64,000 nt of DNA from an uncultured Schlesneria sp. (lineage in GTDB: Bacteria > Planctomycetota > Planctomycetia > Planctomycetales > Planctomycetaceae): contig CAIVEI010000146.1 in assembly GCA_903904835.1 (NCBI GenBank), forward strand, positions 1-64,000, in the 5' to 3' direction. The position numbers were made by a program, and so were the translations under genes. Under the pieces are notes generated by a model, which did no database searches, was not told the DNA's origin, and saw nothing but the letters and a program-made list of their open reading frames with translations. Position 1 is the first letter of the stretch. The number at the start of each line of letters is the position of its first letter. This document shows positions 480 through 62,916 of this stretch, piece after piece.

Positions 480-568
480 AGCCTCAATGGAGACTTCGGA
501 GAAGCAGTGCCTTTTCTTTCTGCGATGAGAAGAGCACTGCTTGACGGAAGACCGTCAAGCAGTGGCAC
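480..568 (+). repeat. REPIN-like element, copy 1 (left end eroded)
   Basis: The right hairpin is perfect: 13 bp, 535-547 with 552-564, loop AAGA. The left hairpin keeps the GGAGaCTTCGGAG loop and the AAGCAGTG 3' strand, but its 5' strand is degenerate. A middle arm pairs CTTTTC (511-516) with GAGAAG. The TGGCAC end is present; its GTGCCA partner is lost. It lies 16 bp beyond the stop codon of the minus-strand glycyl-tRNA synthetase gene. It could act as a 3' structure for that transcript, but no T-run follows on that strand. Confidence 0.75.
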
Positions 569-10353: not shown

Positions 10354-11571
10354 ATGACCGGGTTGATTCTTGTCGCTGCCATTTTGCTGAGCGCGGGGTA
10401 TGCGAAGCTGTCGACGATGGTCTTGAATCGAATGCTGGCGGTGACTCTACCGACGTGGGCGAACAAGCTGCTGGAAATCATTCAACTCCTTTCCATGCCT
10501 GCCTACGCGATGATCTTGCTGATTGCCTTCTATTCCCGCCATGCGGGATTCGGCGGATTAAGCTGGCAAACAATCAGTTACTGGGAACTGGTCCTGATTT
10601 TGGCAGGTGCGATCGGGTTCGGATTTCTGGTTCATTCCACGATCGTTTTTCAGTCTTATCGGCCCCCTCGTTGCGAAATCACTTGTGACTCGCGAATCGT
10701 CGACTTTCGAACGCCCCTGACAGCAATCGCTGCTGATCAGGTCTCTGCCCCCAGCGACTGGCTTTCCACATTTGTCGGACCGGGACCGAGGCGAAGAGTC
10801 GCTTTACTTCCAGGTAATCAACAATTCTCGCTGGAAGTCAGTACAAAAACATATTCGTTGCCCCGACTGCCTCAGGCTTGGGAAGGTCTGTCAATTGTCC
10901 ATTTTGCCGACACTCATTTTCGCGGCGCGGTGACTCGCCGATATTTTGAAAAAGTTTGCGAACACGCTCGGGCACTCAAACCGGACCTGTTCGTTTTCTC
11001 TGGCGACCTCTTCGATGATCTGGCGCTACTGGATTGGCTTGAGCCAACACTGGGTCAACTGAAAGCGCCGCTGGGACAGTATTTTATTCTGGGGAATCAC
11101 GATTGGTATCTTGGCACGAACGTCGTTCGACAAGAGTACGAGCGACATGGCTGGGTCGATCTTTCCAGTCGATGTATCGAGTTGAAATCAGACAAATCAG
11201 GTCCGCCGATCGTCATTGCTGGGGATGAAACGCCGTGGATGGGAAAGCACCCCGATCTGAGTCACGTTTCACCTGAAACGTTTCGGATCTTGCTCAGCCA
11301 TACTCCTGACAACGTCTATTGGGCGCAGAAGCAGAAGTTTGACCTGATGCTGGCCGGTCACACGCACGGCGGTCAGATTCGATTACCGCTGTTAGGGCCC
11401 GTTTACGCACCCAGCCGATACGGATGCCGTTTCGCGTCAGGCGTGTTCTGGCTGAATCCGACGCTGATGTATGTTTCACGCGGAATCAGCGGTCGAGAAC
11501 CGATCCGGTATAATTGTGTCCCCGAACTGACCAAGCTTGTATTGCGAAGCGGAAGCAATTTTCGCGAGTGA
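10354..11571 (+). CDS. Membrane-anchored metallophosphoesterase
   Basis: A 405-residue protein with about three hydrophobic segments in the first 95 residues, then a calcineurin-like domain. The dimetal ligands are present in order: FADTHFRG (about 187), SGDLFDD, GNHDW, LLSHTPD and AGHTHGGQIRLP. It resembles YkuE-type membrane phosphoesterases, some of which act on lipid A precursors such as UDP-diacylglucosamine; the substrate here is not known. The ATG at 10354 follows AAAGGATTTCGAG. The ABC ATPase gene begins 29 bp after its stop, so the two may be co-transcribed. Confidence 0.85.
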   Translation: MTGLILVAAILLSAGYAKLSTMVLNRMLAVTLPTWANKLLEIIQLLSMPAYAMILLIAFYSRHAGFGGLSWQTISYWELVLILAGAIGFGFLVHSTIVFQSYRPPRCEITCDSRIVDFRTPLTAIAADQVSAPSDWLSTFVGPGPRRRVALLPGNQQFSLEVSTKTYSLPRLPQAWEGLSIVHFADTHFRGAVTRRYFEKVCEHARALKPDLFVFSGDLFDDLALLDWLEPTLGQLKAPLGQYFILGNHDWYLGTNVVRQEYERHGWVDLSSRCIELKSDKSGPPIVIAGDETPWMGKHPDLSHVSPETFRILLSHTPDNVYWAQKQKFDLMLAGHTHGGQIRLPLLGPVYAPSRYGCRFASGVFWLNPTLMYVSRGISGREPIRYNCVPELTKLVLRSGSNFRE

Positions 11572-11600
11572 ATTTATGCTTCAGGTCTTAAGGTCTTGTG

Positions 11601-13088
11601 ATGACGACAAGCGAACTGTTGACGATGTCGAAGATCTCAAAGCGGTTTGGAGCAACCAATGCGCTTAACGAGGTTTCACTGACCGTTCGCGCCGGACATG
11701 TTCTGGCTTTGATCGGCGAAAACGGCGCTGGCAAAAGCACTTTGATGAAAGTACTGAGCGGTGCGCACTCGCCCGATTCGGGAAGTATGCAACTGTCAGG
11801 TCAGACGTATTCCCCCAAAGGGCCGCAGGATGCCCGTCTGGCGGGTGTCGGGATGATCTATCAGGAATTGAACCTCGCGCCCGATTTGTCGGTTGAAGAC
11901 AACATCATGCTCGGGCAGGAACCCCATTGGCTCGGCCTGCGAGATCGGCGAACGCAACGAAAAAAGGTTCGCGTGGCGCTGGACACGCTGGGTCATCCCC
12001 ATCTGCGACCCGAAACGCCCGTACGGGACCTGTCGATTGCCTTACGCCAACTGGTGGAAATCGCTCGCGCTCTGGTCTCTGATTCAAAAGTCCTTGTGTT
12101 TGACGAGCCTACGAGTTCGTTAACGATGCAAGACGTCGAACACCTTTTTGCTGTCATCCGTAAACTGCGCGATGCAGGCTATGGAATTGTTTACATCAGC
12201 CATTTTCTGGAGGAAATTCGTCAGGTCTGTGATTGTTACGCGGTGCTTCGGGATGGTCATTCGGTGGGACATGGCGATCTGGCGGGAACGACCGATGCCG
12301 AAATTGTTTCATTGATGGTCGGACGTGGTGTTACAGAATTGTTTCCGACAGTATCGCATACGCCAGGTGAGACACTTTTATCGATTACGAACATGAGCGG
12401 TGAACGGAGTCCAAACAGCGTCTCTCTGGAACTGAAACGGGGCGAGATATTTGGCCTGGCCGGATTAATCGGGGCAGGCCGCACCGAACTGTTGCGATCC
12501 CTGTTCGCGCTTGATCCCATCCGTTGCGGAGAAGTCAAAGTCGCGAGTGTTTCAATCGATCAAAACACACAAGCGCGGATTCGTGCGGGACTGGGTCTTG
12601 TTTCTGAAGACCGCAAGACCGAAGGACTGGCGCAGACGCGATCAATCGCCGACAATCTGACTTACAGTCGCTTACAGCCCTACACCCGGTTGGGCATGTT
12701 GATGCATGGCAAACGAAGGACCGAAGTTCTTCATTGGATGAAACGGTTGCAGGTCAAAGCAGGTTCTCCCGATCAGATTATTGGCGAACTTTCGGGGGGT
12801 AACCAACAGAAAGTTGCCATCGCTCGAGTGCTGCATCAACAGGCCGACGTGTTGTTGCTCGACGAACCGACTCGCGGAATCGATGTCGGAACAAAATCAG
12901 AGATTTATCGATTGATGGGCGAATTAGCAGCGGACGGTAAAGCGATCATCTTTGTCAGTTCGTATCTGACGGAACTGCTGGCGGTCTGTGATCGCATCGG
13001 TGTGATGTCTGGCGGCGTCCTTCGTGAAGTTCGCCAGGCCAGTGAATGGACGGACGAGTCCATCATGAGTGTCGCCGTTGCGAAATGA
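11601..13088 (+). CDS. Sugar-type ABC transporter ATPase (RbsA/MglA-like)
   Basis: A 495-residue tandem ATPase of the carbohydrate-uptake type 2 class. The first half has GENGAGKST (Walker A, about 37-45), a signature region reading LSIALRQ instead of LSGGxxQ, and VFDEPTSSL. The second half has the usual relaxed P-loop (GLIGAGRTELLR), LSGGNQQKVAIARVL and LLLDEPTRGIDVG. Such proteins energise uptake of ribose, galactose, xylose or arabinose with a permease and a binding protein. Neither partner is adjacent. The next gene is an arabinofuranosidase, hinting at pentose uptake, but that is inference. Confidence 0.88.
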   Translation: MTTSELLTMSKISKRFGATNALNEVSLTVRAGHVLALIGENGAGKSTLMKVLSGAHSPDSGSMQLSGQTYSPKGPQDARLAGVGMIYQELNLAPDLSVEDNIMLGQEPHWLGLRDRRTQRKKVRVALDTLGHPHLRPETPVRDLSIALRQLVEIARALVSDSKVLVFDEPTSSLTMQDVEHLFAVIRKLRDAGYGIVYISHFLEEIRQVCDCYAVLRDGHSVGHGDLAGTTDAEIVSLMVGRGVTELFPTVSHTPGETLLSITNMSGERSPNSVSLELKRGEIFGLAGLIGAGRTELLRSLFALDPIRCGEVKVASVSIDQNTQARIRAGLGLVSEDRKTEGLAQTRSIADNLTYSRLQPYTRLGMLMHGKRRTEVLHWMKRLQVKAGSPDQIIGELSGGNQQKVAIARVLHQQADVLLLDEPTRGIDVGTKSEIYRLMGELAADGKAIIFVSSYLTELLAVCDRIGVMSGGVLREVRQASEWTDESIMSVAVAK

Positions 13089-22388: not shown

Positions 22389-22488
22389 GTGCCACTGCTT
22401 AGAGTCTTCGGAGAAGCAGTGTCTTCGCCTGTCCAGCCTCTGAAGCCCGAAGAGCACTACTTGACCCAGGGGGGTCAAGCAATGGCAC
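22389..22488 (+). repeat. REPIN-like element, copy 2
   Basis: Outer ends GTGCCA (22389-22394) and TGGCAC (22483-22488). Arm 1: CACTGCTT (22393-22400) with AAGCAGTG (22414-22421), loop holding GAGTCTTCGG. Arm 2: TCTTCG (22422-22427) with CGAAGA (22448-22453). Arm 3: 22455-22467 with 22472-22484, 11 of 13 pairs. It begins 22 bp beyond the stop of the minus-strand TPR gene at 22511. Confidence 0.85.
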
Positions 22489-30782: not shown

Positions 30783-30794
30783 CCTACGTCTTTT

Positions 30795-36135: not shown

Positions 36136-36229
36136 GTGCCGCTGCTTCGGAGTCCTCTGAGAAGCAGTGGCTTCTCCTCAACACCGGACGAAAAGTACTG
36201 CCTGATCGAGTCCGGTCAAGCAGAGGCAC
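36136..36229 (+). repeat. REPIN-like element, copy 3 (degenerate right arm)
   Basis: Ends GTGCC (36136-36140) and GGCAC (36225-36229). Arm 1 pairs 36140-36148 with 36161-36169 (one G-T wobble) around GGAGTCCTCTGA. The middle and right arms are recognisable but eroded (TACTGCCTGATC / GGTCAAGCAG). Located between an unknown membrane-protein gene and glnA, 31 bp beyond the former. Confidence 0.75.
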
Positions 36230-48098: not shown

Positions 48099-48196
48099 GT
48101 GCCACTGCATCGGAGTCTTCTCCGACGCAGTGTCTTCGCTAAATTCGAAGAGCATTAAAGAACACTGCTTGACCGAAGATGGTCAAGCAGTGGCAC
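48099..48196 (+). repeat. REPIN-like element, copy 4 (best-preserved)
   Basis: Closing stem GTGC (48099-48102) with GCAC (48193-48196). Arm 1 pairs 48103-48115 with 48120-48132 (12 of 13 bp, loop TCTT). Arm 2 pairs TCTTCG (48133-48138) with CGAAGA (48146-48151). Arm 3 pairs CACTGCTTGACC (48163-48174) with GGTCAAGCAGTG (48181-48192), perfect, loop GAAGAT. Drawn together it is a closed four-way junction. It lies between two convergent genes, 48 bp beyond the SGNH stop and 41 bp beyond the DUF1598-like stop. Confidence 0.9.
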
Positions 48197-54874: not shown

Positions 54875-54976
54875 GGGTGTCACGGTTTTGGAGTCTTCGA
54901 CAAGGCCGTGGCTTCGTGGTTCGACACTGTGTGCGAAGAGCACGGTCTTACCGAAGACGGTAACACCGTGGCACCC
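54875..54976 (+). repeat. REPIN-like element, copy 5 (CACGGT subfamily)
   Basis: Closing stem GGGTGT (54875-54880) with GCACCC (54971-54976). Arm 1 pairs 54881-54890 with 54901-54910 (10 bp including two T-G wobbles), loop GAGTCTTCGA. Arm 2 pairs CTTCG (54912-54916) with CGAAG (54934-54938). Arm 3 pairs 54941-54953 with 54958-54970, 12 of 13 bp, loop AAGA. Same orientation as copies 1-4. Located between two convergent genes. Confidence 0.85.
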
Positions 54977-62814: not shown

Positions 62815-62916
62815 GGGTGGCACGGTTTTACCGTCTTCGGTAAGGCCGTGCTCTTCGGACACGTTATCGAACCATGAAGTCACGGCCTTGTCGAAGACTC
62901 CAAAACCGTGCCACCC
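62815..62916 (-). repeat. REPIN-like element, copy 6 (CACGGT subfamily, inverted)
   Basis: Terminal inverted repeats of 15 bp are perfect (62815-62829 with 62902-62916). Arm A pairs 62821-62833 with 62838-62850 (two T-G wobbles), loop TCTT. Arm B (62881-62910) is the exact reverse complement of arm 1 of copy 5, so this copy is inverted. CTTC (62853-62856) pairs with GAAG (62876-62879) in the middle arm. It lies between the methyltransferase gene and the cobalamin gene. Confidence 0.85.

Follow-up and report, generated by a model that had tools for sequence, protein, structure and literature searches.

The 64,000-base window (bases 1-64000 of contig C146 in the draft genome of the source species, an uncultured Schlesneria; 8.18 Mb, 211 contigs) contains six copies of a short palindromic element, the highest-scoring of which, copy 4, lies on the forward strand at 48099-48196 (95.5 bits with covariance model R1, E 2.6e-20) and is made up of one REP hairpin (X), a spacer and a second, inverted REP hairpin (Y). 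The left half opens with a GTGC tag at the foot of the X hairpin (48099-48102, forward strand), where GTGC or GTGG stands at the equivalent position beside RAYT genes, and continues into the X hairpin proper, CACTGCATCGGAGTCTTCTCCGACGCAGTG (48103-48132, forward strand), whose stem has a single A-C mismatch. A central arm of the form TCTTCG...CGAAGA follows (48133-48151, forward strand), its TCTTCG being the 3′ tail of the X REP and, by analogy, a putative cleavage region. The Y hairpin, CACTGCTTGACCATCTTCGGTCAAGCAGTG, occupies 48163-48192 on the reverse strand and is recognized by model R2 (match 48156-48196, E 4.8e-15), which also covers the GTGC tag at its foot (48193-48196, reverse strand). 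The closed four-way junction proposed for this copy in the preliminary description was recovered when copy 4 was folded alone, with an energy of -50.9 kcal/mol.

The count of six copies in 64 kb given in that description was confirmed with R1, with E-values from 2.6e-20 to 7.8e-11 and no seventh copy in the window, where the next-best match was at 30793 (E 0.038). Copies 1 (469-568, 54.7 bits), 2 (22389-22488, 85.7 bits), 3 (36136-36229, 74.2 bits) and 5 (54877-54974, 90.1 bits) are on the forward strand and copy 6 (62817-62914, 86.7 bits) is reversed; copies 5 and 6 form a CACGGT subtype and are 90% identical. Each of the six follows the 3′ end of one or more ORFs, with copies 4 and 5 flanked by convergent ORFs. 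The single layout that had been described for all copies, consisting of an outer stem, a left hairpin, a TCTTCG/CGAAGA arm and a right hairpin, holds for copies 2 to 6 but not for copy 1, in which the left REP is broken. R2 matches only the right half of copy 1, the intact part being the Y REP (529-568, reverse strand), while the left tag, the 5′ arm and most of the left REP are gone and a different repeat (CTCGAACA..GATGGCAACTTTGGTGTGAGGTAAAGCCTCA) terminates within the copy.

The two main hairpins are mutually inverted, as had been noted, but they are two different REP types in a fixed arrangement, each with GTGC at the hairpin foot and TCTTCG at the end. The X REP reads GTGC-CACTGC(T/A)T-nGGAGTCTTCGGAG (or CGGAGTCTTCTCCG)-A(A/C)GCAGTG-TCTTCG, with a hairpin interior of GGAGTCTTCGGAG or CGGAGTCTTCTCCG, and the Y REP, on the other strand, reads GTGC-CACTGCTT-GACCGTCTTCGGTC-AAGCAGTG-CTCTTCG, with GACCGTCTTCGGTC as its interior. 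The X-Y order was found in 16/16 aligned elements, with a few further elements, such as L030, appearing to be Y-Y. The tag of intact halves in the window is GTGC, apart from some CACGGT-subtype halves with GTGT or GTGG. When the aligned family was scored for base pairs changed on both sides, the two-hairpin form had 11 such pairs, a number reached in 0/500 shuffles, and an alternative single long hairpin had 7, reached in 9/500. The Y stem carries most of this signal (8/13 pairs changed on both sides) and support is lowest for the central arm, where pairing holds in 76% of cells and a single pair is changed on both sides; these pairing figures are somewhat raised by the selection of seed elements for one well-kept half. 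The local hairpins are therefore better supported than the single long hairpin, mainly through the Y stem, and both folds are compatible with the alignment because most bases are common to the two forms.

Searching the whole source genome with R1 gave at least 149 sites at E<=0.01 (150 rows, one site being matched on both strands), a lower bound since scoring covered 150 of 3149 candidates. A strict half-element pattern had 26 exact matches in the genome and its reversed counterpart had none, indicating that the family is not a product of chance. Only 1/28 high-scoring copies outside the window fell within an ORF of at least 150 aa, compared to 82% of random window segments. The preliminary description had named two outcomes that would speak against its proposal, a search returning just six copies by chance similarity or an existing repeat family of the same sequence; the genome holds at least 149 sites, an Rfam search with the element matched no family, and no paper among those listed for the string GTGCCACTG dealt with a bacterial repeat.

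The covariance-model search that had been suggested was extended to other planctomycetes. A family-level sample of 61 genomes had suggested an element private to the source genome, a view overturned by a search of the genus, in which copies were found in congeners; element-bearing records beyond the genus include Phycisphaerales, and L114 has two such doublets. Close comparisons were made among the source genome and three others, G067 (= G459, CAILLA01), G069 and G071 (CAIULL01), G067 and G071 likewise being uncultured Schlesneria. In G071, a REPIN cluster led to a RAYT gene on L264 (ORF 10603-11322, protein conserved from 10684), with two REPINs upstream (10386-10483 and 10517-10614) and three downstream (11390-11488, 11522-11621 and 11655-11753). 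The same RAYT and REPIN arrangement is present in G067 (L271), 89% identical to that of G071, and in both genomes (L264/L270 and L271) the flanking REPINs are within 0.1-0.3 kb of the gene. The X REP of copy 4 in the window is identical to the X REPs adjoining the RAYT in G067 and G071. More distant RAYTs in G066, G072 and G070 (63-68% identical) are each flanked by their own REP variants, including a doublet in G070 with a GTGG tag on one side. On L106 (1823-2220, CAILLA01), three tandem X-Y REPINs with spacer DNA in common form a BIME-like array, and a type III restriction-modification locus (L264 3649-10361), whose Mod protein scores 1420 bits with the PADLOC type III methylase model, adjoins the RAYT and REPIN cluster of G071.

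The G071 RAYT, an HUH transposase, scored 85.9 bits against NCBIfam NF047646 (REP_Tyr_transpos; cut-off 80), a model matched by 10/10 members of alignment A5, but it fell below the cut-off of Pfam Y1_Tnp (PF01797; 18.8 bits vs 23), so that Pfam alone would have overlooked the cognate RAYT. A search with the family profile gave a match to chain 4er8 of the TnpA-REP crystal structure (3e-9), and the protein contains the motifs EHVH, FWQ, YIHQNP and WSSA. The REPIN-like nature first proposed for the element is thus supported by a cognate RAYT embedded in REPIN copies in G071 and G067. The sequence features that mark a REPIN are present, namely an inverted hairpin doublet with a short spacer, many dispersed and mostly extragenic copies, a conserved foot tetranucleotide and, in these two congeners, a cognate RAYT flanked by matching REPs. 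The identification of a REPIN with its cognate RAYT in relatives is well supported.

Orthologous sites in the congeners show both retention and turnover. Copy 4 occupies the orthologous position in G067, G069 and G071, where its hairpins are better kept than the flanks; the three congeners have an older X form and the source genome has the RAYT-adjacent X form, which, at this one site, looks like the replacement of an older REP by a newer one. Copies 2 and 3 are common to G071 and copy 5 to G067. Copy 2 in G069 and copy 5 in G071 are gone together with their intergenic flanks, so these absences look like deletions rather than empty sites, and since the flanking DNA is missing too, both copies were dropped as guides to insertion mechanics. 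In the other direction, G071 has a lineage-specific REPIN at a site that is empty in the source genome (position about 44571) and in G069, indicating that copying continued after the species split. This insertion has extra bases on both sides and no duplication, and none of three polymorphic sites, with flanks often rearranged, showed a target-site duplication or a clean target-site structure. These observations bear on the possibility that the element is a MITE mobilized by a conventional DDE transposase, with GTGCCACTGCTT...AAGCAGTGGCAC as its terminal inverted repeats. Its inverted-repeat ends, short length and intergenic position would suit a MITE, but the lack of visible duplications at the polymorphic sites, the packing of repeats round an HUH transposase gene and the fact that either half on its own forms a tagged hairpin tracking the RAYT sequence make this origin highly improbable.

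The same sites were considered with regard to selection by the host, in which the copies would be kept as RNA or DNA hairpins (3′ mRNA stabilizers, attenuators or gyrase-type sites) serving a role beyond that of mobility relics. This would be in keeping with the location of every window copy downstream of an ORF, the persistence of the copy 4 site in four species despite drifting flanks and the compensatory changes in the Y stem. However, a host function leaves the origin of the elements, their tandem clusters at the RAYT and their lineage-specific gains unexplained, and retention is also compatible with mobility; we regard such a role as rather unlikely. The reading of the element as a REPIN, a non-autonomous X-Y doublet copied in trans by RAYT, is very probably correct, because it draws together the dispersed extragenic doublets, the compensatory hairpin changes, the packing round congener RAYTs and a match of the tag across the phylum that is described below.

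A search for a RAYT in the host genome had also been proposed; the cognate gene was found in G071 and G067, but not in the source genome. Neither the source nor the G069 assembly appears to encode a cognate-RAYT protein, their best full-length matches being 28-29% identical and belonging to other groups, and a profile search for the cognate clade at 1e-30 had no match in the source genome. The numbers of RAYT-identical REPs were 97 in G067 and 31 in G071, with the gene (13/31 in G071 being within the contig region of the RAYT itself), and 11 in the source genome and 7 in G069, without it; consensus halves numbered 99, 44, 26 and 13, respectively, a comparison of four related genomes that is no proof of a dose effect. 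The direction agrees with that in E. coli, whose RAYT-bearing genomes contain more REPINs than those without RAYT (PMC8049555). The source and G069 assemblies are drafts of 211 and about 280 contigs, from which a repeat-enclosed RAYT can drop out, and many Y1/RAYT genes of the source genome are at contig ends (L004, L009, L010, L011, L013 and L015), a sign that the surrounding repeats break this assembly. However, the neighboring methylase gene is missing as well; matches to the type III methylase region next to the RAYT are REPIN-sized only in both the source genome and G069. Within the limits of a draft assembly, it is likely that the RAYT has been lost in the source species. In Pseudomonas, REPs without their RAYT have been described and read as possible RAYT loss (PMC3686654).

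The source genome does contain 15 Y1_Tnp genes above the Pfam cut-off. None is on the contig of the window, in agreement with the earlier remark that the window has no such transposase, and none is directly flanked by the element, which removed the PF01797 genes as partners. A RAYT of the L012 type was also rejected, its only nearby REP lying 0.85 kb from the gene and its group having different end repeats. The elements could in principle be moved by an L012- or L006-type enzyme still present in the source genome, in which case the system would not be orphaned, and the L012-type RAYT has one Y REP about 0.85 kb upstream, seen near its G071 ortholog too, and the L006 gene has three elements no more than 4 kb away. 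With an element spacing of about 10 kb in the window, however, chance alone would produce such distances; several L012-group RAYTs have their own, different end repeats (AAAAAGGTGTCAGG..), the L006 gene is surrounded by other repeats, and GTG[CG] hairpins occur at only 2/45 loci of other Y1/RAYT groups, leaving a resident partner improbable. Eight source Y1 genes (L001-L008, L075) resemble class 3 transposases, and L006 is set among a different repeat family (ATCCCGGCAGGGATATCAGTGATTAGCCGGCGGTTGAGCG). In congeners, the L012-group RAYTs at L228, L230, L244 and L245 have AAAAAGGTGTCAGGAACCTTTTT-type end repeats of their own and form a separate RAYT/repeat pair.

Across the phylum, a RAYT of the cognate clade was present at 1e-30 in 46/392 sampled planctomycete genomes. 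Tagged hairpins, taken as those with 8 or more pairs that follow GTG[CG], begin with CA and lie no more than 500 bases from the gene, were found at 30/42 cognate-clade loci (92 hairpins in total), compared to none for the reversed word and the 2/45 loci of other groups noted above. The distance between RAYTs was correlated with that between their REPs (Spearman 0.43; 0/2000 permutations as high, the best being 0.23), and, as the REPs were gathered by their tag, this correlation reflects the sequence after the tag. In a member of the Phycisphaerales (L348), the RAYT is about 40% identical, yet both sides of the gene carry GTGC-CACGGCTTGACCGTCTTCGGCAAGCCGTG followed by TCTTCG or TCTTGG, so that the REPs have the GACCGTCTTCGG core and the TCTTCG tail in common. 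A tag-defined planctomycete REP super-family is plausible and testable. The full proposal is a third such super-family, defined by GTG[CG] and then CA, co-evolved with one RAYT clade over class-level distances in Planctomycetota, arranged as an X-Y doublet in Schlesneria and deprived of its RAYT in at least two species; we favor it slightly.

REPINs have been described chiefly in gamma-proteobacteria, where they carry GTAG tags. Like the REPINs and BIMEs of E. coli and Pseudomonas, the Schlesneria element has two inverted REPs, high copy number, extragenic placement and a RAYT flanked by copies, and, as in E. coli REPs, the RAYT-linked form has a stem mismatch (PMC8266576). It differs in its GTGC foot tag, in having two REP types in a fixed X-Y order, in its CACTGC..GCAGTG foot stem and in its planctomycete RAYT clade. 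Tagged short palindromes in dimers are also typical of the GTAG and CGTC super-families, whose hosts include planctomycetes such as R. baltica, but by the tag criterion in the available text of that work the Schlesneria REPs, with GTGC or GTGG and then CA, belong to neither (PMC3733652). The element falls outside GTAG/GT[AG]G; the GTAG tags listed in that text include GTGG variants and GTGC is absent among them (PMC3733652). In its WQ, YIH[QN]NP and SS motifs and their spacing, a comparison by motif only, the RAYT resembles TnpA-Y1 subclass 2.6 (Bertels group 5), which is mostly from Bacteroidetes and described with atypical flanking structures (PMC6006769). TnpA-Y1 class 3, from Planctomycetes and Acidobacteria, similarly has high-copy structures near a planctomycete Y1 gene, but with a CnGA foot and a Y....Q motif in place of GTGC and Y...NP (PMC6006769). 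The REPIN/RAYT pair is thus of a kind already known and nothing categorically new, with a non-canonical tag and, apparently, an orphaned state in the source species.

Extrapolating from the studied systems, the REPs would fold on single-stranded DNA, as in E. coli and Stenotrophomonas, and the HUH enzyme would read the GTGC foot and the hairpin in a strand-specific manner (PMC8266576). The RAYT tyrosine would cut immediately downstream (3′) of the hairpin at a CT-type site (PMC8266576), such as the CT offered by the TCTTCG tail, and the released single-stranded REPIN would be joined into a new site. The RAYT was presumably present in the ancestor shared by these four closely related species, with the source species and G069 having since lost it, and REPINs left without a RAYT would be relics, decaying unless selection for extragenic hairpins keeps some of them. 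With its divergent foot tag, its identified cognate RAYT, copies at orthologous positions in four species, and RAYT-bearing as well as apparently RAYT-less species, the family makes two questions testable, namely the part of the foot tetranucleotide in recognition and cutting, and the rate of REPIN decay or retention after RAYT loss. If the super-family reading is true, the loss of RAYT in at least two Schlesneria species amounts to a natural experiment on the presence and absence of the enzyme.

Several REPINs contain, inside the X hairpin, a second repeat whose ends resemble CCAAAGTAGCCATCATCGCTCCGCG, with the junction near (T)CTGGAGTCTTC. Its sites include 421-486 in the window, L024, L028, L216 near 951 (reverse strand) and L219 at 10193, and it is possibly a small element that targets REPINs.
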